DNA from: an uncultured Desulfomonile sp.
GTDB taxonomy: Bacteria > Desulfobacterota > Desulfomonilia > Desulfomonilales > Desulfomonilaceae
Assembly (NCBI GenBank): GCA_903952205.1
Contig: CAJBEZ010000099.1
Coordinates: 62,001 to 126,000, forward strand
Reading direction: 5' to 3'
Length of the DNA: 64,000 nt
Below are positions 3,194 through 55,243 of the stretch, in pieces. The stretch's first letter is position 1. Each line of letters begins with the position of its first letter. The notes beneath the pieces are model-generated. The model saw only the letters and a program-made list of their open reading frames with translations, was not told where the DNA came from and did no database searches. The position numbers and the translations under genes were made by a program.

Positions 3194-4261
3194 ATGGAAA
3201 CAGACCTTCTTATGTATCTTGGAATAGCCTCAATCTTGTTCATGGGATGCTTAGCCGCATGGATCAAGCTGAAGAGGCTTTTTCGAGGGTTCCGAAAGCT
3301 AAAGACAGAAAGCGATCTCCGCCGGTTGCGGAATAAGTCCGGACTGGTCAGAGGACTGTTCTCAATTTATGCTTGGTGGCAAAAGTTCAGGAGCCATCGC
3401 GGAAATTCGGCTGGATTTGTAAACGCCTGCCGTTCTGGGGATCTTAACCAAGTAAAAAAGCTGATTGAGGACGGGATTGATGTGAATGCGCGCCGTCATA
3501 AAGGTGGCCGGACAGGATTGATGTTTGCGGCGCAGAAAAACCATATCGCCATTGTCGAATTGTTATTAAAAAATGGATGCGACGTCAACGCCTCTGGAGG
3601 CGGCAGCGGCAAGACAGCGCTTATAAGGGCTTCTGAAACCGGCAATCATGAAATAGTGAAGGATCTACTGGAGCATGGGGCGATTGTGGACATTCAGAGC
3701 AAGGCCAGTGGCAAGACGGCCCTCATGAAGGCATCCGAGGGAGGATTCCTCGAAGTGGTCGAACACCTTGTTCGAAGCGGAGCGGCGGTGGACAGGACGG
3801 ACAAGTCCGGAAGAAGCGCCTTGTTCCTGGCGATAAGCCCCTTCAACAAAATGGCCTTTGATGTTGTTGACCTGCTTGTAGGGGCCGGCGCTAACGTCGG
3901 GATAACGGATGACGCGGGGAACAGCGCTCTGGATAGGGCTCGCGAGTATGGTCTAAAGGAATGCGAACAAATACTCATCAAGCATGGGGCCGAGTCCGGT
4001 AGGTATGACAAAACCTCGATTAGCGAACCCCCCGGCGAAAAAGAGAAAGAAGCCTACAGCATTCTGGGTTGCACAGTCAGTGATTCGGATGACCAGGTTA
4101 AAAGCCATTTCCGGGATATGATCAAAAAGTATCATCCAGACACTATTTCAGGGAAGAATCTACATGAGGACTTTGTAAAGTTTGCAAACCAGCGCTTTGT
4201 TGAACTTCACGAAGCATACAAGACGATAATGGATTCACGTAACAATAGTTATTCGAAATGA
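3194..4261 (+). CDS. Membrane-anchored ankyrin-repeat protein with C-terminal DnaJ (J) domain
   Basis: 355 residues. Residues 5-26 form a hydrophobic segment (signal anchor) followed by a basic linker. Residues 73-272 hold about six ankyrin repeats, seen as recurring units such as GRTGLMFAAQKNHIAIVELL, GKTALIRASETGNHEIVKDL and GKTALMKASEGGFLEVV. Residues 285-352 are a J domain: EAYSILGCTVSDSDDQVKSH, the invariant H314-P315-D316 in KKYHPDT, then a final helix. A J domain stimulates Hsp70/DnaK ATPase, and ankyrin repeats bind proteins, so the architecture suggests a membrane-tethered adaptor that hands clients to DnaK. The repeats and HPD are seen directly; the role is inferred. The start is the first ATG before the anchor and lacks a clear ribosome binding site. 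Confidence 0.85.
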   Translation: METDLLMYLGIASILFMGCLAAWIKLKRLFRGFRKLKTESDLRRLRNKSGLVRGLFSIYAWWQKFRSHRGNSAGFVNACRSGDLNQVKKLIEDGIDVNARRHKGGRTGLMFAAQKNHIAIVELLLKNGCDVNASGGGSGKTALIRASETGNHEIVKDLLEHGAIVDIQSKASGKTALMKASEGGFLEVVEHLVRSGAAVDRTDKSGRSALFLAISPFNKMAFDVVDLLVGAGANVGITDDAGNSALDRAREYGLKECEQILIKHGAESGRYDKTSISEPPGEKEKEAYSILGCTVSDSDDQVKSHFRDMIKKYHPDTISGKNLHEDFVKFANQRFVELHEAYKTIMDSRNNSYSK

Positions 4262-5822: not shown

Positions 5823-6923
5823 TCACAAGGGCGAAGCCGGAGTGATTTTTCCGGACAACATCTGGCTGAACCATGAAATTCCGCTTACAACGTTTCCATA
5901 TTGAACCATGAAAAGATTCACGTCAGCGATGTAGGTCCTCGGCACGAAGATTACATCATAAGGTTTAACCAGGATCGCTGAACTCATGTCCCCGACATCC
6001 AGGATCTTTTTGAGGTCAAGCCTTCTGCCGATAGGTTTGCCGTAAACGTCACGGGAAATCAGGATCACACTGGTAAGATCCGCTAAGTCAGGCAGTTCTC
6101 CGCCTGCAAGGGCAAGGGCCTGGAGCGCTGTAATTGGTTGGTCTATGTCATAACCACCAGGACGCGCAACCTGTCCCATTACATAGACCTTGCGGGAGCG
6201 CGCTGCGCCAAGAGACATCGACACAACGACGTGTTTCAACGGACCGTCCCTATATAAACGGGTGACAGTATTTTCCACTTCATTAATTGTGTGGCCTGCG
6301 CACAGGACTCTATCTCTCAACAAGGGTAAATCAATTGTGCCGTCGGGTTTTACAGTGATGTTCGATTTGCTTCCAGTAGCAATATTCATCAGCGATTGCA
6401 TTAACTTGGTGATTTTTTCATAAAACTGGTCTACCGCCACCGTGACCATCTGGTAATTTTTAAGGTCACCTTTTGTTTCGTCCTTGCTGAATATTCCTGT
6501 TTTGACGAATTTATCCTGAATGGCCAGGGCAAGTTGTTCCGGAGTCAATCCTACGGCTCTAATATCTCCAATGGCCTGCAGTGTAATCATGCCGTCAGGT
6601 CTGACTATTGCGTCTTCGTTGAGTTGCGGGTCAAGAATGAACCGTATTTTCAACTTATCGAGAGTGTCGAGTTTGTAACTGCCTATCGGAATATTCCATT
6701 CCGCGGAAAAAAGTATGGACAAATCATCCTTAGGTCCTATCTTATAGTTTCTACAAACTATATCAAAGGCTTGAGCCAGGTCATCAAATTGAGGCGTCTT
6801 ATGCGGACCGGGAGATGGCCTGAAGGGGGAGGGCACAAGGCCGATACAACCTTCCAGCAAGCTACAAATTAATATAATGGACAGGAGTTTGGCTACAAAT
6901 CTCCTACCACCTTTGGGGACCAT
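5823..6923 (-). CDS. Wza-like polysaccharide export lipoprotein (Poly_export/SLBB)
   Basis: 366 residues. A lipoprotein signal peptide ends at LLEGC (C26), so the protein should be lipidated and inserted in the outer membrane. From residue 58 the Poly_export domain begins with YKIGPKDDLSI and AIVRPDGMITLQAIGDI, the usual start of Wza/KpsD/OtnA proteins. SLBB-like domains follow (RKVYVMGQVARPGGYDI, then ALAGGELPDLADLTSVILI). Such proteins form the octameric outer-membrane channel and dock onto the Wzc periplasmic part. The matching Wzc-like kinase lies at 20630-22972. A good minus-strand promoter sits just upstream (6962-6991). The start at 6923 is the first ATG before the signal peptide. Confidence 0.9.
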   Translation of the reverse strand: MVPKGGRRFVAKLLSIILICSLLEGCIGLVPSPFRPSPGPHKTPQFDDLAQAFDIVCRNYKIGPKDDLSILFSAEWNIPIGSYKLDTLDKLKIRFILDPQLNEDAIVRPDGMITLQAIGDIRAVGLTPEQLALAIQDKFVKTGIFSKDETKGDLKNYQMVTVAVDQFYEKITKLMQSLMNIATGSKSNITVKPDGTIDLPLLRDRVLCAGHTINEVENTVTRLYRDGPLKHVVVSMSLGAARSRKVYVMGQVARPGGYDIDQPITALQALALAGGELPDLADLTSVILISRDVYGKPIGRRLDLKKILDVGDMSSAILVKPYDVIFVPRTYIADVNLFMVQYGNVVSGISWFSQMLSGKITPASPL

Positions 6924-9957: not shown

Positions 9958-11409
9958 ATGTCGATAAAGTCGCAGAAAAGTCTTCTAAAAAATACCGTTG
10001 CCCTGTCAATTCCTAACTGGGTCAATCCATTTGTCTCTTTATTGCTGGTCTATGTTTTGTCGAGAAGGCTGGGGGTAGAGGGAGTCGGCCAGTATGCGCT
10101 TTTATCGTCTTATCTGAGCGTATTTAGCGCCATTGCGTCCATGGGGCTTGGCGGACTGATTGTCCGGGAAATCATCCGTAATCCCCAGCAAATCCATATA
10201 CTGACGGTAAACTCACTCTTGTTTGGGTTATTTTCAAGTCTAATAGCCATAATCGTGATGGACATAACCATTGGATTTTTAAACTATGATCGGGAAATGT
10301 TGCTGGCTTTAATAATAGGGTCAACTTATCTCATGCCGGCTAGTTGTTCGCGCTTTCTGGAGTCATCGTTTTTGGCTGTTGAAAAGTCTGAGTTCACCGC
10401 TCTTGGTCAATTTTTCGAAAATCTGACAAAAGTGGCCCTTTGCACGATTTTTATTCTGTTGGGGTACGGCATCGTAGCGATATCAGCGATGACAGTGCTG
10501 TCCAAATTGATTGGCCTCATTCTGCTTTTGATTTTCTACTTCAAAGCTGTAGGAGTTTTGTCACTTGAACCGAAACAAAATGTTCTGACGATGCTGCTTA
10601 AACAGTCTCCCATCTTTCTGGGGATAGCCGTTTTCTCTTCAATATACACGAATGTAGACATCATACTTCTCTCAAAACTTGCTGGTGTTTCTTCAGTTGG
10701 TATTTATAGCGCCGCATCAAAAATTAGCCAGTTGGCTGTAATTGTGCCAGTGGCTTTTTCTATGGCCATATTGCCGACCTTTTCCAGAGATTTTGTTCAT
10801 GGGTTGGACAGTCTGCGAGACAAAACCGAACTTTCGATTCACTATGTGCTCATAATTTGTTTTCCACTGGTGGGAGGAATAATTGTTTTAGCGGAAAAGC
10901 TAATTTCTCTGATATACGGCCCTGAATTTGGCGGGTCTACGATTATCCTGCAATTGATGGCCCCATCCCTGATACCTTATAGCCTGATATTGATTTTGGC
11001 TCAGACCCTTATCGCATCCAATTATCAGAGAATAGACCTAGTCATCAATGTTGTCGCTGCGATCCTGGCAACTGGCCTTAATTATGTTCTTATACCAAAA
11101 TTCATCGAATTCGGGGCAGTGCTGGCAAGTATTTGCACACTTCTAACCTTTTTGAGTCTCCAGGTCCTGTTTATAACGAGGAACATGTTTCGGCTTAATC
11201 TGCTCCGGCTTTCCATAAAGCCATTCCTGGCTTCAATTGGGATGGTATTGGTGACTTACTCGTTGCGAGAGACCAACCTTTTAATAAATTACCTCATTTC
11301 AACGATATTCTATTTTGGACTCCTGATCGTCCTAAAGGGCCTATATCCTGAGGAGATGGCTGCAATCGAGAGTGCAGCCAAGAGACTAATTCATTTGGTT
11401 AAACTTTAA
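9958..11409 (+). CDS. Wzx-type polysaccharide flippase (MATE/MOP superfamily)
   Basis: 483 residues with about 12-14 hydrophobic helices. The N-terminus (LLKNTVALSIPNWVNPFVSL) and the first helix region YVLSRRLGVEGVGQYALLS are typical of polysaccharide biosynthesis/RfbX proteins, which flip undecaprenyl-PP-linked repeat units across the inner membrane. A further family motif is VDIILLSKLAGVSSVGIYSA. It is divergent from the acyltransferase gene. No clear ribosome binding site precedes the ATG. Within this window it is the only obvious flippase, so it may serve both glycan clusters. Confidence 0.9.
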   Translation: MSIKSQKSLLKNTVALSIPNWVNPFVSLLLVYVLSRRLGVEGVGQYALLSSYLSVFSAIASMGLGGLIVREIIRNPQQIHILTVNSLLFGLFSSLIAIIVMDITIGFLNYDREMLLALIIGSTYLMPASCSRFLESSFLAVEKSEFTALGQFFENLTKVALCTIFILLGYGIVAISAMTVLSKLIGLILLLIFYFKAVGVLSLEPKQNVLTMLLKQSPIFLGIAVFSSIYTNVDIILLSKLAGVSSVGIYSAASKISQLAVIVPVAFSMAILPTFSRDFVHGLDSLRDKTELSIHYVLIICFPLVGGIIVLAEKLISLIYGPEFGGSTIILQLMAPSLIPYSLILILAQTLIASNYQRIDLVINVVAAILATGLNYVLIPKFIEFGAVLASICTLLTFLSLQVLFITRNMFRLNLLRLSIKPFLASIGMVLVTYSLRETNLLINYLISTIFYFGLLIVLKGLYPEEMAAIESAAKRLIHLVKL

Positions 11410-13668: not shown

Positions 13669-15087
13669 TCAATGGAACTCTTCAGGGGGTTGACCATCCA
13701 GGACATCAATAACAAGATCCATGAATGCCTTAGCTTCCTCGTTCGTGAATTTCCATGCCGCTGCGGACAGCATCAGGTTCAGTTTTTTTCGAAAAAAATA
13801 TACGGCCAGGTATAAAGGCGTCCTTGAAACAATCCTGTAGGCCATGGCGTGCGCTTCGACTATATTCAGACTACCAGCCGAAGTGAGATAGGAATCTCCA
13901 GAGATTCTACGACCGTTAGATTCCGGCCAAAGCACGCCCATAAAGCCCAAAGCAAAAGATGTCTGATGCCTCTCAAGTATTTCAAGGTATGCTTTTTGCC
14001 TTAGTTTGAACGGTAAAAGCCTCAAGAAGTTATTTAACTTCGTCATCCCCTTGAAATATTTAATATCCATCTGGTCCCTGAACAGCCTGATTCTGGATCT
14101 GCCAACGTGGCGAGCAAGCTTTTTGAGACTGCTTCTCTGGTCGCGACTAAATTGGAAATACAGCACGCTGTCATTGTTTGGGCCGTCTGCCCCACTGAAG
14201 CGTCCCTGCATGTTAACGGTAAGCGCCGCTGAAAGCGTTGAAGATTCCTTATTTCGAGCGTCATTCCAACGGTCTATGGCCAATGCCATGCCGGCCATCA
14301 GGTAGTCAACAAAAGGGACTCTCATTCTAGCGCAATCCATTGCAATACTGTTCGTTCTATCTTCCGAAAGTAATCGCTTAACGTAATGCTCTCCAGGTTG
14401 ATTAAGAACGCCATTGCCCTCTGGTATGGCACACCTTTGATAAGGAATCATTGCCTGACCAAAAGTGTCCCAATAGTCCCTCATGGAGCTATTTTTCTTG
14501 CGGATTTTGCGTTTGTAGGCAGTTGACGCCACAGATGGATATCCAGAAAATATCGAGGTTTCCCCAGTGACCAGCTCGTGATAATTCGACATGAAAACCT
14601 TGACTATTTCCGCCAGAGTGATCGCGTCGGCGGCCCGGTGCCCCAGGATGAGGGCCAGGATATGCCTGTCCCCGCCACCAAATCTTAACAAGTGGAATTC
14701 ACTCGCAGGCTCCTCAAAGGGATTCCTCTCTCGAGTTAAGCTCTGTTCAACTCGCTTAAGCAAAGCTTCAAATCCATAGCCCGTGCTATTTGATTCCCCC
14801 AGACTGCTGATCACCAAGGGTATTTCCAGGCTTTGTCTATGATCCCATACCAGGTAGCGCCTTCCCTTTGACTTGATCTCGGTAAGAGAAGCTTTGAGTT
14901 GAGGAAAAAAATCCCCAATGCTGTTCACTGTGGCTCTCAAAGCCGAGAGATCGAGTGGCCCCCTAAGATCCAACGCCCCCAGGATAATGTTCCTATTTTT
15001 GGAGTTAGTGGTTAGAACAAGCGCCTCCGCCAACGGATTGAGCACAGTGTATTTCTCGGGCGCCAGGCCATCATTCTTGAAGTCCAT
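13669..15087 (-). CDS. Condensation-domain/acyltransferase-like protein (CoA-dependent acyltransferase fold)
   Basis: 472 residues. The layout matches the chloramphenicol acetyltransferase-like condensation fold: an N-terminal strand (LDLRGPLDLSALRATVNSI), FPQLKASL, and at residues 150-155 the motif H-R-A-A-D-A, a variant of the catalytic HHxxxDG with His150 and Asp154 retained. A later stretch TLSAALTVNMQGRF corresponds to the domain's second half. No carrier protein or adenylation domain is nearby, so a nonribosomal peptide role is unlikely. Acyl transfer onto a sugar or lipid is more likely, as in PapA-type enzymes. It lies 76 bases downstream of the ligase-VWA gene on the same strand and is probably cotranscribed. 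Substrate unknown. Confidence 0.7.
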   Translation of the reverse strand: MDFKNDGLAPEKYTVLNPLAEALVLTTNSKNRNIILGALDLRGPLDLSALRATVNSIGDFFPQLKASLTEIKSKGRRYLVWDHRQSLEIPLVISSLGESNSTGYGFEALLKRVEQSLTRERNPFEEPASEFHLLRFGGGDRHILALILGHRAADAITLAEIVKVFMSNYHELVTGETSIFSGYPSVASTAYKRKIRKKNSSMRDYWDTFGQAMIPYQRCAIPEGNGVLNQPGEHYVKRLLSEDRTNSIAMDCARMRVPFVDYLMAGMALAIDRWNDARNKESSTLSAALTVNMQGRFSGADGPNNDSVLYFQFSRDQRSSLKKLARHVGRSRIRLFRDQMDIKYFKGMTKLNNFLRLLPFKLRQKAYLEILERHQTSFALGFMGVLWPESNGRRISGDSYLTSAGSLNIVEAHAMAYRIVSRTPLYLAVYFFRKKLNLMLSAAAWKFTNEEAKAFMDLVIDVLDGQPPEEFH

Positions 15088-15163: not shown

Positions 15164-17536
15164 CTATTTTTCGATCGTGACCTGATCGTCATTAATGAGG
15201 ATGTTGAGCACCCTGTTTTCTCCGCCTGAGAGTTTTATGCCTTTAACATTTCGTTTAGAATCTTCCAGGCCTACAATTTCAGGTAATTTAAGGTCATAGG
15301 TTCCGGGTTTCAGTTTGAGATTTGATCCAGGCAAGACGGTCTGAACGTAATCTTCCCGCGAAACAGTGACTCGTTCAAGAAAAGGTTCTTTCAGTATCTT
15401 TAAATAATTGTCCAGGCACGAGCTTAAATCCTGGGGAGAAACCAGATTCAGTCCGGTCCCCCCAGTTTCGGTCGCTTCGTCCAGAAGTCGTTTAGACCAA
15501 GGTTCTGTAGCCCCCATAAAAGCCACATCCAATAAAGGATGACGACCCCCAATCATGGTCTTTTTAATGCTTTCAATCACGGGATCCAGAAAGCATTCTG
15601 TCGTTGCGTCTGTTACCAGCAGAATACGGGCCCCGGAATTTGTATTTGCAGATACAAAATCCCTGGTTAACGCTGATTCAACCGCCGCACAGAGATTGTT
15701 TTCACCCGCATGATCCTGTGGAAACCGGAGAACATGCCCCGGATGCCATGGTAGGCTTATCCAGGGGAGAATCAGCCGGCTTACTCTGAAGTTGATCTCT
15801 CTACCTCTTCGTTTCAGAGGACCCGCGTCAGAAAATGTTTTGATGGCCAGTTTACTCTCCGGCGCTGACTTTTGACCTAGCTGGTCAATAAAGACCAACC
15901 CATCTGCAAGCCGATTCGGATTCCATGGAGCGTCCATCTTGACCATGGATGTAGAATTGTCCAAAATGCATAGAATATCCCAGTTCGAGGGCCTGCCCAA
16001 ATAACCCTGAATGTTTATTGTTAGTGTAGCCCAATCCAGTTGATCAGACGTGTCCTGAACTGATTTTGACTCAAGCACAGGTGAAATCAACGGCAGCTTT
16101 TTGAATCGATCCCTGATGCTGTCGGTGGATGGCAGGTTCTCTGGTTTGAAAGCTGGGTGGGTACCCACGAGTGTCCCTAAAAGCGCTGCAACGATCGCCA
16201 GACCCGCCACCGAAAAAACTGAACGAATTTTAATGCGCTCTCTTTGGGCTTTAGGCGCAGGTTTAGGAATCAAAGCCAGCAATACGTGAAAAAACCAGGC
16301 GATCATCGGCGTCAGGAGAATATCCATCATCATATAGTGTAATATTGCGCCGGTGATCGGGATCAGGAGGGCTAACGGTGGGATCAGAGAATTGGGATCC
16401 GGGCTGAATGTGGCCCTCAGCAATCGAATCACGAGAAACACTAGAGCAAAGAGATAAAGCGCGGCAAAAGGTAAACCGAACCCTACCATGAAGGTTAACA
16501 AAATATTTTGGGACGTAACAAGAGTCTTTACATTTGCTGAAAATTCCTTTTCCGAATAATTTGGGTGCCAGCCTATATAATCAGCTAAATAGTGGTAGCG
16601 CGGTGTTCTTATGCCGATTCCGACCAATGGCGACTGTTTGGCGACATGAGCTGAAAAATTGTAGAACTCCAATCTCTCTGATTGATATGTTTTGTTGGAA
16701 TATCCTTCAGTTGTAACCCAGGATAGATAATGGGCGGTAACCGCCACTGCGAACAGCACGATTATGACAGGGGCCAATCGGCTTTTGGTCCTCGAAAGAG
16801 CCAATACCAAACCTAGGACCAGAATCACAGGCGGTATTAGTAAAGCCGATTCCACACCACCCACAGCGCAGACATAAAACGCTACGTAAGAGAGAACAAG
16901 GAGGGAGACCCCGAACATTACTCCCAGAATTTTTCCGCTTTTGGTCAAGGCCAGGCTGGAAAACGAAAGTAGCAGTATGATGTTGACCAGCATATGTAGA
17001 TCGAACACAAAATATGTGCTCAAACCGTGGAAATAATAACCCCACAGGCTGAGAATCAACAGTAGGTCCAAAGTACCGGCGCACAGCCAAATAAAAACTT
17101 TAACCCTGGTCTGAGTTGTGAGCAAAAGTCGAGCCGCCCAATAACCGCCAAGCGCGTTGGCCCCCCATGTCAATGCCCAGACCGTTGAACTCCATGGCGT
17201 AGCGCTGTAAATTCCACTGAGAATAGCAAGCGTAAGCAAAGCTCCGGAAATTAGCAGTTCAGTCCAGGGAACCTGTCGAACTCTGGCTCCGGCGGCCAGG
17301 ATGGCGCAGGACAGAGTAATAGCGGACACAGCGCCAAGGTACGCGTCAGTTTTGACACCCAGAATGACTGGGACAAATGTCTTGAAAAGGGCAAACTGCA
17401 CGGATGTCGCGCAGAAAAAAGCGAAGGCGACCTTTTCGGGGAAAGAACTTTTCTCTTCAGGTTTGTCCAATTTTGAGGGATTAATATCAATCATACATCT
17501 ACAAGCACTATTTAAATAAGTGTCATGAAAAGTCAA
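15164..17536 (-). CDS. O-antigen ligase/polymerase-like membrane protein fused to a C-terminal von Willebrand A domain
   Basis: 790 residues. Residues about 36-430 hold roughly ten or more membrane helices with a large periplasmic loop in the middle (about 285-345) containing SPLVGIGIRTPRYHY, the PLxGxG-type signature of the Wzy_C/O-antigen ligase family. A further helix (about 450-468) leads into a soluble region. From about 510 a von Willebrand A domain begins. MIDAS residues D526-x-S528-x-S530 (ILDNSTSMVK) and a later D653 (LLVTDATTE) are present. A C-terminal beta-rich tail (GSNLKLKPGTYDLKLP) follows. The ligase part would join or polymerise undecaprenyl-linked glycan at the periplasmic face, and the VWA part would bind a protein partner through a metal ion. 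An alternative start at 17494 (MIDINPSK) is plausible; neither has a strong ribosome binding site. Confidence 0.83.
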   Translation of the reverse strand: MTFHDTYLNSACRCMIDINPSKLDKPEEKSSFPEKVAFAFFCATSVQFALFKTFVPVILGVKTDAYLGAVSAITLSCAILAAGARVRQVPWTELLISGALLTLAILSGIYSATPWSSTVWALTWGANALGGYWAARLLLTTQTRVKVFIWLCAGTLDLLLILSLWGYYFHGLSTYFVFDLHMLVNIILLLSFSSLALTKSGKILGVMFGVSLLVLSYVAFYVCAVGGVESALLIPPVILVLGLVLALSRTKSRLAPVIIVLFAVAVTAHYLSWVTTEGYSNKTYQSERLEFYNFSAHVAKQSPLVGIGIRTPRYHYLADYIGWHPNYSEKEFSANVKTLVTSQNILLTFMVGFGLPFAALYLFALVFLVIRLLRATFSPDPNSLIPPLALLIPITGAILHYMMMDILLTPMIAWFFHVLLALIPKPAPKAQRERIKIRSVFSVAGLAIVAALLGTLVGTHPAFKPENLPSTDSIRDRFKKLPLISPVLESKSVQDTSDQLDWATLTINIQGYLGRPSNWDILCILDNSTSMVKMDAPWNPNRLADGLVFIDQLGQKSAPESKLAIKTFSDAGPLKRRGREINFRVSRLILPWISLPWHPGHVLRFPQDHAGENNLCAAVESALTRDFVSANTNSGARILLVTDATTECFLDPVIESIKKTMIGGRHPLLDVAFMGATEPWSKRLLDEATETGGTGLNLVSPQDLSSCLDNYLKILKEPFLERVTVSREDYVQTVLPGSNLKLKPGTYDLKLPEIVGLEDSKRNVKGIKLSGGENRVLNILINDDQVTIEK

Positions 17537-17687
17537 AATATGGCCATCATCTTATCTTAAATGAGTTTTAAGGCAACTTCTGAAGTTTGGCTCAGGTCCA
17601 TTTTGTTGAAAATGTCCTTATGATAGTATAAACGCCATGGCGTAACTGAATTTGAAAGTCTCATGGAACCTCAAGATTAATAGAACA

Positions 17688-18845
17688 ATGAGAAAATTAC
17701 TATTTATCCAAATTTTGTTAATGGTTGTGTCGGTAATGGCGTATGAATCCCTGGCAATTGAGGCGGTCGATCGTTTCCGCATGTTACGAGTCAAAGCCAG
17801 AGCTGAGTCCTTCGTTGAAGAGGGTAGAAGAGACCTCGAAAGAGGGGCGTATATGAAGGCGATAAGGGTCCTCTCGGTAGCAATCGGCAAGGGCGCGGGC
17901 AACGAGGCTTACGAACTAAGGTCAAAAGCGTATGAGGCTGTAGGTTCTAAAGACCTGGCGTTGAAGGATCTAAACCACGTCATTGCATCGCGTTCCACAG
18001 ACCCGTCAGGATATGTGGCACGCGCCGACGCCGCAACTTCAATGAAGTATCATGAAAGGGCGATTTCTGATTACGATAGGGCCATTGAACTGGATCCGTT
18101 TTTTATCGATGCTTATTTAGGTAGAGGAGCCGCGTTTGCCGCTATCGAAAAATACGAATTCTCAATACGCGATTTCGAGCTTGCTCTTAAAATAGATCAG
18201 AATAATCCGGAAGCCATCTATAATATGGGGATTATTTGTTTCTTGGCTGGGCTACCGGAAGCAGGAAAAGATTTTGTCAACAGGGCGCTGAATCAGGAAA
18301 CCAATCCCGCTGATAGGGACAGGCTTGTTTCTCTTCTGGCCGAATCGCCCTCTCAATCAGAATATGAGAAAAAGAAAGGCGGGATCAATGGGATTCTGGC
18401 GGAGCTTGCAAAAACAGAAAGCTTTAAGCTTACCAGCTCAGACAATACGGAATCTAAACGCGGCGCCAAACTCAACTCAAACGATCAGGCTAAACTTGAC
18501 GGTCATGAAAAATCCAATCGCGCTACAGAGGCTCGTGAACTACTGGCAAAAATAGGCAAGGAGGATTTTTCCGGCACAAGTTTCGGGAATTACATGGGAC
18601 TTGAATGGAGAGCCTCTTTTAGATTTTCAGGTAATACGGTAACGGGAACATTGAAAATTGTCACACCGTCAGGTAAACAGGAAGTTCATCATGGAAGAGG
18701 AACTGTTACCAACGGAGTTGTCGAGGCCTCGGACAATCTGGGATTCAGGTTCAGTGGAAGAGTCACAGATGACTTCAAACTCGTTGGATCAATGACTACC
18801 GCCGACGGCAAGAGCGTATCCGTCGACATGCCACTGGATCATTGA
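17688..18845 (+). CDS. Secreted TPR-repeat protein
   Basis: 385 residues from ATG 17688. A TTG 36 bases upstream stays in frame but would put 12 polar residues before the signal peptide (MRKLLFIQILLMVVSVMAYE), so the ATG is preferred. Residues about 45-200 contain four TPR-like units (RDLERGAYMKAIRVLSVAIG, HERAISDYDRAIELDPFFID, YEFSIRDFELALKIDQNNPE). The C-terminal 100 residues are a separate beta-rich domain (DFSGTSFGNYMGLEWRASF) that I do not recognise. Periplasmic TPR proteins commonly scaffold envelope assembly. It is divergent from the ligase-VWA gene. Confidence 0.75.
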   Translation: MRKLLFIQILLMVVSVMAYESLAIEAVDRFRMLRVKARAESFVEEGRRDLERGAYMKAIRVLSVAIGKGAGNEAYELRSKAYEAVGSKDLALKDLNHVIASRSTDPSGYVARADAATSMKYHERAISDYDRAIELDPFFIDAYLGRGAAFAAIEKYEFSIRDFELALKIDQNNPEAIYNMGIICFLAGLPEAGKDFVNRALNQETNPADRDRLVSLLAESPSQSEYEKKKGGINGILAELAKTESFKLTSSDNTESKRGAKLNSNDQAKLDGHEKSNRATEARELLAKIGKEDFSGTSFGNYMGLEWRASFRFSGNTVTGTLKIVTPSGKQEVHHGRGTVTNGVVEASDNLGFRFSGRVTDDFKLVGSMTTADGKSVSVDMPLDH

Positions 18846-19166: not shown

Positions 19167-19318
19167 TAATGAATCAATCCTTTCAGGGTTGTTTTAAAAA
19201 TACGCATGTTTCAGGGTCAATCTAAATCCCGTGAATGCGTGTTATTAATGATTGTTGTTGATAGGTTTGAAAAATTAGACGTGGCAAGTTGTCACGTCTA
19301 ACAGGATTTGTTTTTTCC

Positions 19319-20617
19319 GTGCGGAACCCAAGAACTTCCTCGATAATCTACGCTGTATTCGCTCTTCTGATAATTACCGCTACTGGAATAGTTCTGAAGC
19401 CTCGTCTAACCGATCTGACACAAGCTTACGATTATATAACAAATCAGATTTTTCGTGATGTGTCGTTTTTGACAAAACCCATCATTGAATCCGATCTGAA
19501 GATAAAAGAACGTGGCCTCGGGGAAACCAGGAAACGCCTGATGTCAATTGACCCTGGCATAAGGTTGGAAGCCATCAAATCGATAGAGGAAAAGAGTGAT
19601 CCACAGTTTGTCCCACAGATGATCAAACTTCTCAACGACACTGCATCGGTTGAGGATAAGAACATCGGGGCAAATTATCAAATCAGCGAAGCGGCCAAGA
19701 GCGCGTTAACAAAAATAATGAAGGACAACATCATTCGGGAACCCGGAAACATGGCAACGTTCATTCCATTGTTTCAGGCCGGGCTACAGGGTTCTCATGC
19801 GGAAAAAATTGGTGTCATAGCCATACTTTCCGCTCTGAGGGAGCCGACTGCTTATCCTTTGCTCAAACAGATGTCTGAAAACAGTGAACAACCTCAAATT
19901 GCATTGATGGCGTCCGACGCTGCACGCTCACTCCTGCCTAAATCAGTTACTTCTAATGATTATTTCCTTGTCACATTCAGACGAATCGAAATTGTTTACC
20001 TTCTCATGTTTATGGGCGTAATCATGGGAATTGCCGCAATAGCGGGGCTGTTGAAACTTAAATCAGCAAAGTTTGCGGTTCTTTGTGTCCTGGCGCTAGC
20101 CCTAAACGTCGGACTGGGGATGCTTGTTCACGCGGAATTAAATCGAGGCGCCATTACTGAAACTTCCCTGAAAAACGCTCTGAATTCAGAGGATCTTCCT
20201 GCGTTACGCTCTATGAGCTATTCGGAGAACACTTTGTACCCGGGAGATTCGTTCTTCGCTCAGAATCTTGTTCAATCTCCATCCGCCAATGCAGTTAGAG
20301 TCTTGATCGCGCTGCCGGAAATAGAACCCGATGATCTACCGTACTTCAAAACCAATTTTCAGATCAGAAGCCGCTGGATAATGGCGCGTATCCTGATGCT
20401 GAATTTAGGCAAGCCAATCCTTGAAACCATAATTGACAGCTCCGACGAGGACGTCAATATTGCTGTGATTGAAACGTTTGAGCGGTTACAGATTCAGAAC
20501 GATCATATTAAGGGTTATCTGGAAAGATTGAGCGAGGATGACAAACCGGAAAAAGTCAGGAATGCGGCCGGAAAAACGCTGTCCAATATAAAAGCACGCC
20601 CTTTGTGGCCGCTGTGA
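19319..20617 (+). CDS. Membrane protein with HEAT-like repeats
   Basis: 432 residues from GTG 19319 (a TTG at 19289 gives 442). An N-terminal anchor (TSSIIYAVFALLIITATGIV) is followed by an alpha-helical soluble region with HEAT-like units (MSIDPGIRLEAIKSIEEKSD, PQFVPQMIKLLNDTASVEDK). Two adjacent membrane helices come at about 230-275 (VYLLMFMGVIMGIAAIAGLL, FAVLCVLALALNVGLGML), then a second HEAT-like region (SSDEDVNIAVIETFERLQ). It converges with the wzc-like gene, 12 bases apart at their 3' ends. HEAT repeats bind proteins; the role is unknown. Neither start has a convincing ribosome binding site. Confidence 0.65.
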   Translation: MRNPRTSSIIYAVFALLIITATGIVLKPRLTDLTQAYDYITNQIFRDVSFLTKPIIESDLKIKERGLGETRKRLMSIDPGIRLEAIKSIEEKSDPQFVPQMIKLLNDTASVEDKNIGANYQISEAAKSALTKIMKDNIIREPGNMATFIPLFQAGLQGSHAEKIGVIAILSALREPTAYPLLKQMSENSEQPQIALMASDAARSLLPKSVTSNDYFLVTFRRIEIVYLLMFMGVIMGIAAIAGLLKLKSAKFAVLCVLALALNVGLGMLVHAELNRGAITETSLKNALNSEDLPALRSMSYSENTLYPGDSFFAQNLVQSPSANAVRVLIALPEIEPDDLPYFKTNFQIRSRWIMARILMLNLGKPILETIIDSSDEDVNIAVIETFERLQIQNDHIKGYLERLSEDDKPEKVRNAAGKTLSNIKARPLWPL

Positions 20618-20629
20618 TGTAATAGCCCC

Positions 20630-22972
20630 TTATGACTTTTGATAATACTTGTAGCTCTGATGATAGGAATAACCACCATAGCGGTAGCCGTATTTGTAAC
20701 CATAACCGTACAATGCCGGTGAATGCGCCCGATTAAAGACCACGCCCAAGACGTTGGCGCCATCAACAGCGCTTACTTGATCAATCGCTTCGGAAATTTC
20801 ATTTTTCCCCACGTATCCCTGCCTGGCCACAATAACCAGCCCATCAGCGTACCGACTCACTATAGGTGTATCGGGAAATCCCAAAATCGGCGGACAATCG
20901 AATACAATATAGTCAAAAGTCGATCGCAACTCATCCACGACCTTTTTCAGGTTGTGGGAATGCAAGAGGCTCACTGAATCAGAAGGAACCGGCCCAGCCG
21001 TAATATAGAACAATCCGGGGATTGTATGCGCTCTAAGAACTTCTGAAAGGGTTGTTGAGTCCCCGTTGTCGCTCAATAAATTTGACATGCCAGGTGTAGT
21101 CTGCGGAACGCCAAAAACTTTATGAATTCTGGGTTTTCGCATATCCATATCAACAACAACCGCTCTCTTGTTTCCGTTGGAGCACATCACTGACGCAAAT
21201 GAAACCGCCAGCATAGTCTTGCCTTCCGAAGGCAGTGAACTGGAAATAGACAGACATTTTATTTCATAACCAGGATACGAAAACATTATGGACATTTGAA
21301 GGTTTCGGATCGAATCCGCAATCGGGGTTTGGGGCTTATGATACGCAAGGAACTCGACAGCGCCTTCCGAAAGCTCGTTCTTCCCGTAAGTCCCTGATTT
21401 AGTAAGATCAGGGACAACACCCAGCCGTCGCACGCGAAGGGATTTGGCGAGGTCGTCAGGATTCTGTACGGTATCATCCATCTGTTCCCAGATAAAGGCG
21501 CACGCTACGCCTCCAACAAGGCCGGCCACAAGTCCAATCATCAATATGAGCTTTTTCTTGGGCCAGGAAGGGCTCCGAGGCATCGTGGGAGGATCCACTG
21601 TGACCAAGTTGTTGCTGATGGTTCTTGCTTTGATGTCCATTTCCTGGGTTTCTTTCATGATCAACTTCAGAAATTCCTGGTTTGTTTCAACTTCTTTCTT
21701 GAGAATGGAATATTCAGCTTCAAGCCCCTTGACGCGTGATACCTCCTGCTTGGTTTTTTCAACACTTCCCTTAAGCGCTGCGTCGACCTTTTCAGCAGAT
21801 TCTACTGCGCCTGTCGCCAGGTTTCTCTCAATCTCTGCGATCCTGTTTTCCAGAAACTTTATCTTCCGCGCCTGTAACACCATTTTTGGGTAATTGGCCG
21901 AATATACTCCCTGCATTTGGGTGTATTCGGCTTCCTGCTTTGCCAGATCTTCCTTCAGTTTGTTTATGTATGTTTGGTTCGCGTCACTCGACTTATTTTC
22001 AACATCCGCATACTTGGTTTCCTTCCCGACTTGCGCCCTCAATTTGGTTTCTTCCGAACGCACCTGGCCCTCAACCTTTTTATTCAGGAGAGCCATAACC
22101 TGCCCCAGCGCTCCTTCTGTGGATACTACAAGGCCGTGTTCAAAAGAAAAATCGAGTAGTTTAGACTCAGCTTCCCTTAATTTTTTTCCTACTTTACCCG
22201 ACTCCTCAGTGAGCCATTCCGCTGCCTGGATACTCTCGCTTCGTCTTTTTTCGAGGTTTCTGTTAAGGTAAGTGTCCAGATAGGTTGTCAAAAGTTCATT
22301 AGCCATTTTGGGAGACTTCGCCGGGATTGAAACCTCAAGCAAATTACTGGTCTTCACAGGTTTTGCGACCAGGCTGCCCGCCAGAGAATCCGCCATGATA
22401 GCTCTATTCAAAGCTTTTGTGTCATCCGGCAAATCTGACGGATCATCCTTAAAACCACTTAAAACTGTTCGCCACAAGTAAGCTGGAACCTGTAGCAGGG
22501 GTAGACTCTTTGACTGGTCAGCGTCTTTTTCCAAAAGCTTCATACGATCGACTACAGCTTCGGCAAGGGGTCTTGATTTTAGGATTTCGATCTGGGTCAT
22601 CATGAAGGGCTTGGTATCAATAGCTTCTTCAGCAGACAGGCGTTTTTCGGACTTTTCTTTTTTGTCTAAAACTTCGAGGCGGGCGTTTGATGTGTATAGT
22701 GGTGTCGCCAGAAAGGCATAAGCGACTGAAATACACACAGACAAGGCAAGAAATATGATTACCGCAACGCGTCGGCGGAGTATAATATCAAGATAATCTT
22801 TAAGTGATCTGTTTGAGTCAGCAAACCCGTCGTCTCCGGCATTAGGCGGATATCCCAACTGATGCTGAAGAACATAAGGACTCGCTGGGTGGCCAGCCGG
22901 AGAAAGCGGTTGACTCGCAGGCGGCTGGTCTCCTCCGGGATTATTTCTGGGAACAAGTTTGTCGATACTCAT
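20630..22972 (-). CDS. Wzc-like polysaccharide co-polymerase and BY-family tyrosine autokinase
   Basis: 780 residues. A proline-rich cytoplasmic N-terminus leads to TM1 (about 68-92), a periplasmic Wzz domain with long coiled coil (about 245-440), and TM2 (about 473-494) preceded by the proline-rich PPTMPRSPSWP. The cytoplasmic kinase has Walker A S582-E-G-K585-T (SLPSEGKT), Walker A' VVVDMDMRKP (D608, D610) and Walker B YIVFDCPP (D692). The C-terminus is a tyrosine cluster of 11 Tyr within about 24 residues (755-778), the autophosphorylation tail. Such proteins control chain length and gate the Wza channel, cycling with a phosphatase such as the CpsB-type protein here. The start ATG follows a short leader. 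Confidence 0.94.
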   Translation of the reverse strand: MSIDKLVPRNNPGGDQPPASQPLSPAGHPASPYVLQHQLGYPPNAGDDGFADSNRSLKDYLDIILRRRVAVIIFLALSVCISVAYAFLATPLYTSNARLEVLDKKEKSEKRLSAEEAIDTKPFMMTQIEILKSRPLAEAVVDRMKLLEKDADQSKSLPLLQVPAYLWRTVLSGFKDDPSDLPDDTKALNRAIMADSLAGSLVAKPVKTSNLLEVSIPAKSPKMANELLTTYLDTYLNRNLEKRRSESIQAAEWLTEESGKVGKKLREAESKLLDFSFEHGLVVSTEGALGQVMALLNKKVEGQVRSEETKLRAQVGKETKYADVENKSSDANQTYINKLKEDLAKQEAEYTQMQGVYSANYPKMVLQARKIKFLENRIAEIERNLATGAVESAEKVDAALKGSVEKTKQEVSRVKGLEAEYSILKKEVETNQEFLKLIMKETQEMDIKARTISNNLVTVDPPTMPRSPSWPKKKLILMIGLVAGLVGGVACAFIWEQMDDTVQNPDDLAKSLRVRRLGVVPDLTKSGTYGKNELSEGAVEFLAYHKPQTPIADSIRNLQMSIMFSYPGYEIKCLSISSSLPSEGKTMLAVSFASVMCSNGNKRAVVVDMDMRKPRIHKVFGVPQTTPGMSNLLSDNGDSTTLSEVLRAHTIPGLFYITAGPVPSDSVSLLHSHNLKKVVDELRSTFDYIVFDCPPILGFPDTPIVSRYADGLVIVARQGYVGKNEISEAIDQVSAVDGANVLGVVFNRAHSPALYGYGYKYGYRYGGYSYHQSYKYYQKS

Positions 22973-26080: not shown

Positions 26081-27565
26081 TCATTCATGTCGCCGTTCAC
26101 ATCGTTCCAACAAACGGTTCTTCTCCTCAACTGCGCTCAGAAAACGCCACCACACCAATTCCAGGTATTTCTGATACGACGGGTCATCATGTGTTGGGAC
26201 GACCCATTTCACCAACAAATCAGAATCCTTAAAGTTCCGGAGCCCAGTCTTTTTCGGGGAATCCGGATGAATGTCCCGTGGGTTATTCCACACATGTGGC
26301 TGATATCCGTTCAGGTTGACTTCGACCTTGAGCAAATCAAGGTCCCGGACACCTACCTCCATTAGTAAAACAAGTTCATCGTGCGATTTTACCCGACGCA
26401 GCCTTGCCTCCATGTATGAATTGAAGGTCGACAGGAACTGGCAGTCCTGGCGATTCTTTATCGCTTTGGTAAGGCGGTCTATTCTATTGACGTGAAGCAC
26501 TAGAGCCATGATCGCCACAAGCCCTATAATCGAGACCCCTGCGATTATCCAGGGTAAAGACGATCCGGGATTGAGATTGATCAAAAGCGTGACAGAACAG
26601 AAAAGGGCGCTGAAAATATAAAATATTCCAATGACCAGCCTTGGTCTCTGGAACATTTCCATGAACCGGTGGTGTATATGATCCGCGTCAGGTAGGAAGA
26701 TCTTCCTTCCACTGATCCATCGGCGTGCGATAGCAAGGGCCACGTCAATCAATGCGATGGCGAAAGGCAGAAGCAAAGCCAGGAGCGTGGTCAGGGTTGT
26801 GTATCGTGAACCGGACCCCTTGACTATATCGCTGGTCGCGAAAATACTCAGCATAAACCCCATGGAGAGGCTCCCGGAATCACCCATGAAAATGGAAGCC
26901 GGCGGAAAATTGAACCTCAGAAAAGCTACCAGGCTGCCCGCCAATGTGAAACATATAGCGGTGACCAGCAGGTTTCCCTTGGCGAACGCAAGTATGCCGC
27001 AGGTCAACGAAGCAAAAAAACAAATCCCACCCGCAAGTCCATCCATGCCGTCAATCAGGTTAATGGCGTTCATCACGAGCAATATTATGAAGCCCAGTAT
27101 CGGGTAGCCCAGAGCCCCAGTATCGATAAGCCCGTAAAATGGGATAACGATCTTTCCGATGGAATTGCCGCCTATCAGAACTATCATGACCCCAAATATC
27201 TGACCCGCCAACTTCTTGCGCCACCCAAGGTTGGCCCTGTCGTCGATCAGCCCGACAAAGAGGACCCACAGGGTTCCTGCAAACACCGAAATGAACTGCG
27301 GAACCGTATCATGATCGATCAGCGCAGAGCCAACGCCAACCAGGTACAGATAACCTGAAAACAATACAAGATGCGGCGCAAAAATTGCCACACCACCCAG
27401 GACAGGGATTGCGTTCCCATGTAATTTCCGGCCACCCGGGTAGGACAGAAAGCCATACGCTACCGCTAGTCTCTTCATCGCAGGTATTAATAGATAAGTA
27501 ACGATGAAACCGAAGCCGACCAAAATGGCTATGTATTTGTAATATTGATCCAAATCGTCCCCCAA
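26081..27565 (-). CDS. WecA/TagO-type undecaprenyl-phosphate sugar-1-phosphate transferase with C-terminal extension
   Basis: 494 residues; the first about 350 match the polyprenyl-phosphate HexNAc-1-phosphate transferase family (WecA, TagO, MraY relatives), about eleven membrane helices. Motifs: GRKLHGNAIPVLGG, VGLIDDRANLGWRKK (DD motif), NAINLIDGMDGLAGG, FMGDSGSLSMGF and the PDADHIHHR loop (HxHH), all in the right order. It primes glycan repeat units by adding a sugar-1-phosphate to undecaprenyl phosphate on the cytoplasmic face. Residues about 360-494 are an additional cytoplasmic region (VKSHDELVLLMEVGVRDLDL, WKTH-free, rich in charged residues) that I do not recognise. It is flanked by family A repeats. 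Confidence 0.9.
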   Translation of the reverse strand: MGDDLDQYYKYIAILVGFGFIVTYLLIPAMKRLAVAYGFLSYPGGRKLHGNAIPVLGGVAIFAPHLVLFSGYLYLVGVGSALIDHDTVPQFISVFAGTLWVLFVGLIDDRANLGWRKKLAGQIFGVMIVLIGGNSIGKIVIPFYGLIDTGALGYPILGFIILLVMNAINLIDGMDGLAGGICFFASLTCGILAFAKGNLLVTAICFTLAGSLVAFLRFNFPPASIFMGDSGSLSMGFMLSIFATSDIVKGSGSRYTTLTTLLALLLPFAIALIDVALAIARRWISGRKIFLPDADHIHHRFMEMFQRPRLVIGIFYIFSALFCSVTLLINLNPGSSLPWIIAGVSIIGLVAIMALVLHVNRIDRLTKAIKNRQDCQFLSTFNSYMEARLRRVKSHDELVLLMEVGVRDLDLLKVEVNLNGYQPHVWNNPRDIHPDSPKKTGLRNFKDSDLLVKWVVPTHDDPSYQKYLELVWWRFLSAVEEKNRLLERCERRHE

Positions 27566-53560: not shown

Positions 53561-53750
53561 TGCGTATCACGATAGTCGTATTGTTTGATGTAATGCCTGA
53601 TCTGTTTTGTAAGTTCCTCTCCGGGATGCCAGATTCCACTTTTGAGAACATCGCGTGTAAGATATTGAACCAGATTTCCACCTGACTTAACCAGGAGGCG
53701 TATGCGGGAGTGAAATGGAGTGTGAATCGACGTCCGTGTGACAGAAATGG
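53561..53750 (-). pseudogene. C-terminal fragment of a second IS630-family transposase
   Basis: On the minus strand one frame reads FTLHFTPAYASWLSQVEIWF, and the adjacent frame continues as LTRDVLKSGIWHPGEELTKQ then IRHYIKQYDYRD. Together they match the end of an IS630-type DDE transposase with one frameshift between IWF and the next part. Its upstream half is missing, and the 3' part of wzy runs into it. On the other side it is cut by the first IS630 copy. It is a relic of an earlier insertion. Confidence 0.7.
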
Positions 53751-55243
53751 TGTATAGTGTTGCTCACTTGTCCATCCTGGACAGATTTGGCCAATTTGAG
53801 GGGTAGGGGAACGAAAGTCTTTATTAAATACCAAGTTCCGGCCATTAAAGGCAAACTACCCACAAAGGTCGGAACAAATGGAGATTCTACTGAAGATCCG
53901 TATCCTATGCCAAGGAATATTATGGGTAAATACCTGATGTCATTGTTTCGCCAATAGTAATAGGTTTTGTGTGAAAGGATAGCCAAAACGACTCCAATAA
54001 AAAGGCTTGCGCTAATAACCAGAAGCCATCCCCCAGACCCATATAAGTCTCCGAAAACAGTTGGAGCTAACGAGCTACCTTCATTTCCAGTTTTGCGCTT
54101 GTATAGATCAAGACCCACATTGGTAGTGGAGGGTTTGTCTTTCCATAGGATTCTGGGAACAAAAACTATAGCCAATCGGTCCATGCTGCCTAAACCCGCT
54201 CCTGAATCATATTCGCTCATGATGTAACCTTGAACATTTGAAAACGACAAACGGGTCCACAATGCCTGAGTAGTACGATCCGAATAATCAATGCTATCGT
54301 TCGAATCAAACACCATATAGTCCCAAACAAAACTGATTGAATCTCCGAACGTGTCGAAATTTTTGGATCGGCCCAAGTCTGATAACGGTTTATACCATGA
54401 AAAAAAAAGTACAACGACTGCAGCGCCAACTAACAATATGGTTTTTTTTCTTGTGGCCAGAAACGCTGCCAATAAGCAGACCACTAAAGGCACCAGAACG
54501 CCAGACTTTGAATAAGTAGGCAATGCTAATCCCATTTCGAATATCAGTAAAGAGAAAGCAAGGATCCGAAGAGATTTCATAGCCTTGAAATATAGGTAAG
54601 AGACCAAAAACAAACATACTAAGGTCAATCTCCCAGTCTGAGCCAAAGAGGATGGAATAGCCCAGCCTGCATCCAGATAACTATTCAACAGTACAAGACA
54701 TCTTACGGGAACGGAAAAGGCCAAAATGACAATTGTAAATCTCGATACGGCGCGGTAATCGAAAATATATTGTTCGTTCTTGTTGGACATGTTTGACAAA
54801 TAATTACGGGACATCATAACATAGCCTAGACACACCATGAAAATGCCAACAGCGTTCAGCAGATTAGTGCGAAGCAAAAGTTCATCTCTAACATGGAAAA
54901 GCGAATCTAAATGCCGCACGGAATCAGCATTTCCATAAAAGTAAATAAGAGGTCCGCCCCCAAAACAAACGCCACACGCAAAGATGAACCATGACACAGC
55001 TCCAAGAATAAACACCGGATCATCCCTAATGGCTCCCAATACCGTCAGACCGCAACCAACAATAAGAAGCATCGGGAGAAAACCGTTCGCCAATTCTATG
55101 GTCTCTATATTTCCCGAGACACCCGTCACCACGTAGCACAGGATCATTAAAAAGCTGAGCAACAACATTAACTTCAGCGACATCATATTTGGGCTGACTT
55201 TTTTTTTGTGGAGACACAAGTGTTGGTTCATTACGTTTTTCAA
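53687..55243 (-). CDS. wzy: Wzy-type oligosaccharide repeat-unit polymerase (O-antigen polymerase family), 3' end altered by IS sequence
   Basis: 518 residues with about 11-12 hydrophobic helices and a large periplasmic loop containing YSDRTTQALWTRLSFSNVQG, then SMDRLAIVFVPRILWKDKPS, and FGDLYGSGGWLLVISASLFI, as in Wzy polymerases (conserved Arg in the loop). It polymerises repeat units at the periplasmic face. The last about 30 residues (after LPLKLAKS, about 53770) are read out of frame from the IS630-family remnant, so the native C-terminus is lost. The gene ends overlap a remnant frame. It starts 4 bases inside the upstream glycosyltransferase gene (ATGA overlap). Confidence 0.82.
   Translation of the reverse strand: MKNVMNQHLCLHKKKVSPNMMSLKLMLLLSFLMILCYVVTGVSGNIETIELANGFLPMLLIVGCGLTVLGAIRDDPVFILGAVSWFIFACGVCFGGGPLIYFYGNADSVRHLDSLFHVRDELLLRTNLLNAVGIFMVCLGYVMMSRNYLSNMSNKNEQYIFDYRAVSRFTIVILAFSVPVRCLVLLNSYLDAGWAIPSSLAQTGRLTLVCLFLVSYLYFKAMKSLRILAFSLLIFEMGLALPTYSKSGVLVPLVVCLLAAFLATRKKTILLVGAAVVVLFFSWYKPLSDLGRSKNFDTFGDSISFVWDYMVFDSNDSIDYSDRTTQALWTRLSFSNVQGYIMSEYDSGAGLGSMDRLAIVFVPRILWKDKPSTTNVGLDLYKRKTGNEGSSLAPTVFGDLYGSGGWLLVISASLFIGVVLAILSHKTYYYWRNNDIRYLPIIFLGIGYGSSVESPFVPTFVGSLPLMAGTWYLIKTFVPLPLKLAKSVQDGQVSNTIHHFCHTDVDSHSISLPHTPPG

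Follow-up and report, generated by a model that had tools for sequence, protein, structure and literature searches.

Membrane enzymes of the Wzy_C superfamily (Pfam PF04932) comprise the WaaL O-antigen ligases, the type-B Wzy polymerases and PglL. They have many transmembrane helices and a large periplasmic loop with the motif GN1, R-x(11-24)-GxG. Deletion has shown that GN1 and a second motif, GN2 (HN-x9-G-x(2-4)-G), are both required for polymerase function, and a Gly of GN2 is sensitive to point mutation (PMC12502699). PglL and WaaL both contain Wzy_C, and H349 of the former and H338 of the E. coli enzyme are among the important residues (PMC3643930). On the other side, the von Willebrand A (VWA)/integrin I-domain fold is that of TFIIH p44, Rpn10, the CD11b I-domain (1ido) and the aerotolerance-related structure 4jdu. 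The gene described here carries both. It lies in a window of 64,000 nucleotides, the whole stretch of DNA analysed, from an uncultured Desulfomonile sp., and encodes a genuine and conserved fusion of a Wzy_C-superfamily membrane half, a last helix, a VWA domain and a beta tail.

The coding sequence runs over positions 15164..17494 on the minus strand, as do all parts of the protein given below, and specifies 776 residues without internal stops from the ATG at 17494, which we prefer. The fusion homologues (776-777 aa) begin at the equivalent of this ATG, and the TTG at 17536, which adds 14 residues, therefore probably lies 14 codons upstream of the true start. Residue numbers are ATG-based here, that is, those of the earlier note minus 14. 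Its proposal of one frame carrying both halves is borne out, the frame being uninterrupted on the minus strand. It had also envisaged that a sequencing error might have joined two adjacent genes, and an assembly error could have done the same. Every related genome identified by title is a draft assembled from metagenomes, which leaves some room for such an accident; however, the same continuous frame is present in seven independent assemblies, down to ~31-33% identity, and the junction is under selection. From the measurable pairs among four closer species, dN/dS values are 0.06-0.11 for the junction with the last helix, 0.08-0.17 for the membrane half, 0.14-0.25 for the VWA domain and 0.12-0.26 for the tail: purifying selection acts across the junction, which together with the membrane half is the most constrained part. 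An artefactual join or frameshift is so improbable that we reject it. Scans for promoters and terminators gave chance-level signals only.

The membrane half covers residues 1-411 (16262..17494), stand-alone homologues aligning over residues 35-425. Hydropathy gives 12 helices, with a further one possible between residues 99 and 132; together with alignment to other Wzy_C proteins it delineates the large periplasmic, presumably catalytic loop at residues 259-340 (16475..16720). Plain hmmscan of the fusion protein returned no Wzy_C match, and with neighbouring frame matches PF04932 reaches 28.1/31.7 bits, exactly at its cut-off of 31.7. The family is recognized more clearly in fusion homologue L009 (42.2 bits against 31.7) and was matched in 9 of the 11 members of the alignment of this half (best E 2.2e-13). 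As judged by HMM and topology, the membrane half is a member of the superfamily, yet lacks one of the motifs that define WaaL and type-B Wzy enzymes. GN1 is present as R274-x17-GIG294 (16613..16675) and overlaps SPLVGIGIRTP (residues 288-298), the segment that the earlier note had pointed out in the WaaL-like part. At the GN2 position, by contrast, we find Q329-N330-x9-G340 (16475..16510) followed by LP, so that both the His and the second Gly of the motif are missing.

This replacement is general among the fusions. The ‘HN’ of GN2 is QN in the five fusions of the genus, EN in the two others and carries E, D or Q in the stand-alone relatives, whereas other Wzy_C proteins of the same genomes keep HN where the genus fusions have QN. 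Alignment to canonical Wzy_C proteins from this and related genomes also reveals, in the loop of the fusions, an insertion of ~20 residues preceding the GN2 position. Of the residues that characterize E. coli WaaL (R215, R288, H338), the His position is Gln in the fusion. The Wzy_C-like half and its SPLVGIGIRTP stand as first described, but the specific label of O-antigen ligase is not established, since Gln or Glu replaces the HN-motif His of WaaL/Wzy in every fusion; for the same reason its catalytic activity is uncertain. Stand-alone members of the same subfamily were found in glycan clusters, and one of them, encoded in the same genome (G000:C33:128825-130003, L002), displays ‘SED’ at the HN position. 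When the PDB was searched by sequence with profiles of the fusion and of Wzy, no WaaL-type entry and only weak VWA matches came up. The full-length AlphaFold model has a pLDDT of 56.6, too low for the membrane half or for the relative placement of domains; VWA folds were alone among the top matches listed in structure searches made with it.

After the membrane half, a loop at residues 411-425 with six Lys/Arg (+6), presumably cytoplasmic, precedes a last transmembrane helix at residues 426-444 (16163..16219). By the positive-inside pattern, the VWA domain is predicted to be periplasmic, on the same side as the loop 259-340, in agreement with the location anticipated earlier. The additional helix and beta-rich tail described in the earlier note are both present. 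In the stand-alone VWA proteins discussed below, a Pro-rich linker follows a single N-terminal helix; this points to their signal anchor as the counterpart of the last helix of the fusion.

The VWA domain spans residues ~499-703 (15386..16000). Its Pfam match is below threshold in this protein (16.9 versus 27) and above it in homologue L008 (27.8). A model of the C-terminal half, built from a 20-sequence alignment (A4), has a pLDDT of 83.5 and matches VWA/I-domains at Z 19-21, with rmsd ~2.5 Å over 170-182 residues. The best matches are protein-docking VWA domains: TFIIH p44 (Z 21.0, rmsd 2.5 Å, 178 residues), Rpn10 and integrin I-domains, including that of CD11b, 1ido (Z 19.5, rmsd 2.5 Å, 170 residues). 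The fold is complete, as in these proteins, while the fusion differs from them by its modified metal site, by the all-beta tail that follows the VWA domain in the model (residues 704-776, ~70 residues, 15167..15385; kept in the stand-alone VWA proteins) and by the attached glycan transferase half.

Concerning the metal site, the DxSxS residues noticed earlier, D526/S528/S530 when counted from the TTG, exist as D512-N-S514-T-S516 (15947..15961). The distal Asp had been misplaced: residue 653 is not an Asp, and the MIDAS Asp is D643 in that numbering, or D629 (15608..15610), in the sequence VTDAT of strand 4. At the MIDAS Thr position, Asn599 is found (15698..15700). In all seven fusions the distal Asp is unchanged, the last position of DxSxS holds Ser or Thr, and Asn or Gly takes the place of the MIDAS Thr. 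The structure model upholds the VWA fold, but an intact MIDAS, as initially proposed, has to be rejected.

Related genomes, to which the earlier note had pointed for comparison, do conserve the fusion: it is intact in 7 of 18 genomes of the family, namely five of the seven in the genus and G013 and G014, which represent two other genera of this Desulfomonilaceae-like family. No further fusion was detected in 395 genomes of the phylum, where the membrane half occurs in stand-alone form only. None was found in a profile scan of genome contigs with alignment A1, and a contig scan with the single fusion protein as query gave no match. A stand-alone VWA homologue is present in 17 of the 18 family genomes, the exception, G003, being an 82%-complete assembly; outside the family, the phylum search for such homologues gave weak, partial VWA matches only. 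In trees of both halves, the fusions are located on one side of a single branch (support 90/89 and 70/99), and one fusion event is therefore the simplest reading. The C-terminal half derives from a paralogue of the stand-alone, single-helix VWA protein.

This stand-alone protein (e.g. G000:C70, L003) shares with the fusion the VWA domain and beta tail, with 22-31% identity there, and its N-terminal helix may correspond to the last one of the fusion. Unlike the fusion, it has a long Pro-rich linker in place of the Wzy half and mostly keeps the MIDAS Thr but frequently lacks the Asp and the third Ser. Its gene is situated directly downstream of rnpB, encoding RNase P RNA, and is divergent from a gene for an exported AhpC/TSA-like redoxin, often with a NusG-like gene nearby. 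This neighbourhood was compared in seven genomes and rnpB confirmed by Rfam in three (L129 10838-11197, L130 10307-10664 and L134 10518-10875); ORFs called opposite rnpB are spurious.

A different evolutionary behavior of the two halves is seen in the sister species G003 and G004. In segments of 250 bases, their identity is 90.8-100% through the TPR gene, the membrane half, the condensation gene and Lgt, but 66-81% over the VWA domain and tail, where the allele of G004 is the divergent one (L034 8700-9760, compared with L033 of G003 and L035 of G002). Identity falls off from about residues 484-504 onwards and recovers just past the gene. Informative sites grouping G003 with G004, against those grouping G003 with G002, number 134:10 in TPR, 69:37 in the N-terminal half, 28:186 in VWA and tail, 307:25 in the condensation gene and 54:10 in Lgt. 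Between G003 and G004, dS is 0.12 in the N-terminal half versus 1.29 in the VWA domain; relaxed constraint alone therefore does not explain the divergence, whereas allele replacement in G004 does. The VWA domain and tail thus appear to have been swapped as a module by recombination in G004, although this divergence possibly comes from a chimeric metagenome contig. It is tempting, if rather speculative, to see in VWA and tail a swappable specificity module, species recombining VWA alleles while keeping the enzyme half, so that the periplasmic domain would fit the transferase to whatever varies, be it the partner, the acceptor or the polysaccharide.

By the families assigned to its neighbours, the fusion gene sits in a Wza/Wzc/Wzx/WecA-type export locus. 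From left to right, the window contains CpsB/CapC, a Wza-type polysaccharide export protein (5823..6923, minus strand), an acyltransferase, a Wzx-type flippase (9958..11409, plus), a CrtC-like lipocalin protein, Lgt, a condensation-domain (PapA5-like) acyltransferase (13669..15087, minus) and the fusion. Beyond it are the divergently transcribed TPR gene (17652..18845, plus), a membrane HEAT-repeat protein (19289..20617, plus), a Wzc-type PCP/tyrosine autokinase (20630..22972, minus), a Wzz-like protein, a WecA/MraY-type initiating glycosyl-1-phosphate transferase (26081..27565, minus) and then a glycosyltransferase cluster. The setting among wzx, condensation-fold, TPR and HEAT genes, already pointed out in the earlier note, is confirmed, and this polysaccharide-export context suits a protein-docking role. 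The fusion is the sole Wzy_C protein of the window, yet a second Wzy-like protein is encoded at 53687-55243; this 518-aa, 9-helix protein belongs to no Pfam family, weakly resembles exosortase Y-associated Wzy and is probably the polymerase of the glycosyltransferase cluster.

Within the genus the order TPR-fusion-condensation-Lgt is kept, and contigs of sufficient length show HEAT and Wzc beyond it. In G014, the fusion, homologues of the condensation and TPR genes and two Wzc genes are found on one 39.7-kb contig. In G013, the fusion and the homologues of condensation, TPR and Wzc are on different contigs. Outside the genus, the closest relatives of Wzc are those of the two remaining genera with the fusion, represented by G014 and G013. 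The condensation-domain acyltransferase, unexpected in a capsule-type locus, has homologues in 16 of the 18 family genomes, several in some of them. Two further peculiarities concern the surroundings. In G006 (L032 10217-12176), two Lgt-like ORFs with the same N-terminus flank another ORF, suggesting a partial duplication or an assembly error. At 3194-4261 of the window, one protein combines an N-terminal hydrophobic segment, ankyrin repeats and a C-terminal DnaJ domain.

Taken together, we favor, with a probability of roughly 55%, an inner-membrane lipid-linked-glycan transferase, docked to a partner by its fused periplasmic VWA domain and born from one fusion. The membrane half would be the polymerase or ligase of an exopolysaccharide/capsule system; the data fit either. 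Its C-terminal periplasmic VWA and beta module would have been gained in one fusion with a paralogue of the family-wide membrane-anchored VWA protein. Most likely, this module would tether the enzyme either to an acceptor or to a protein of the export apparatus (the Wza-type porin or the periplasmic part of Wzc/Wzz), and transfer of the glycan would then coincide with its export. Points against this reading are the Gln or Glu in place of the GN2 His, the second Wzy-like protein at 53687-55243 and, in G013, the separate contigs of fusion and Wzc.

Loss of the GN2 His also makes an inactive scaffold possible, in which a catalytically dead Wzy half would bind lipid-linked glycan as a scaffold or sensor in the membrane and the VWA domain would relay this to partners. 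The contrast between the QN of all five genus fusions and the HN of other Wzy_C proteins in the same genomes is in line with this idea, as is the separate Wzy candidate of the sugar-transferase cluster. We nevertheless hold it to be rather unlikely: the whole stand-alone subfamily has E, D or Q at the His position in a strongly conserved surrounding motif, where E could act as a base; the Arg and GxG of GN1 are retained; and it is on the membrane half and the junction that purifying selection is strongest. Still less probable, in our opinion, is that the fusion works as an O-oligosaccharyltransferase in the manner of PglL, with the VWA domain either catching the protein substrate of glycosylation or serving as the acceptor. 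The Wzy_C domain shared by PglL and WaaL (PMC3643930), a module for protein binding on the side of the membrane where the acceptor would be and a fast-evolving VWA domain and tail, apparently swapped as a unit in one species, would all fit, but the position of PglL H349 is Gln or Glu in the fusions (PMC3643930), and the linked genes are export/capsule genes among which a glycoprotein substrate is not evident.

The association of Wzy_C with VWA is a new domain combination, conserved but narrowly distributed in a small deltaproteobacterial family. In the open-access literature searched, no title or abstract describes a fusion of Wzy with a von Willebrand/VWA domain, and ‘Wzy_C’ and ‘VWA’ do not occur together as whole words in any paper there. 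How Wzy/WaaL-type enzymes couple to chain-length regulators, acceptors and the export machinery is an open question. With a putative periplasmic docking domain naturally fused to the enzyme, and each half also encoded separately in close relatives, the partner can be sought directly.
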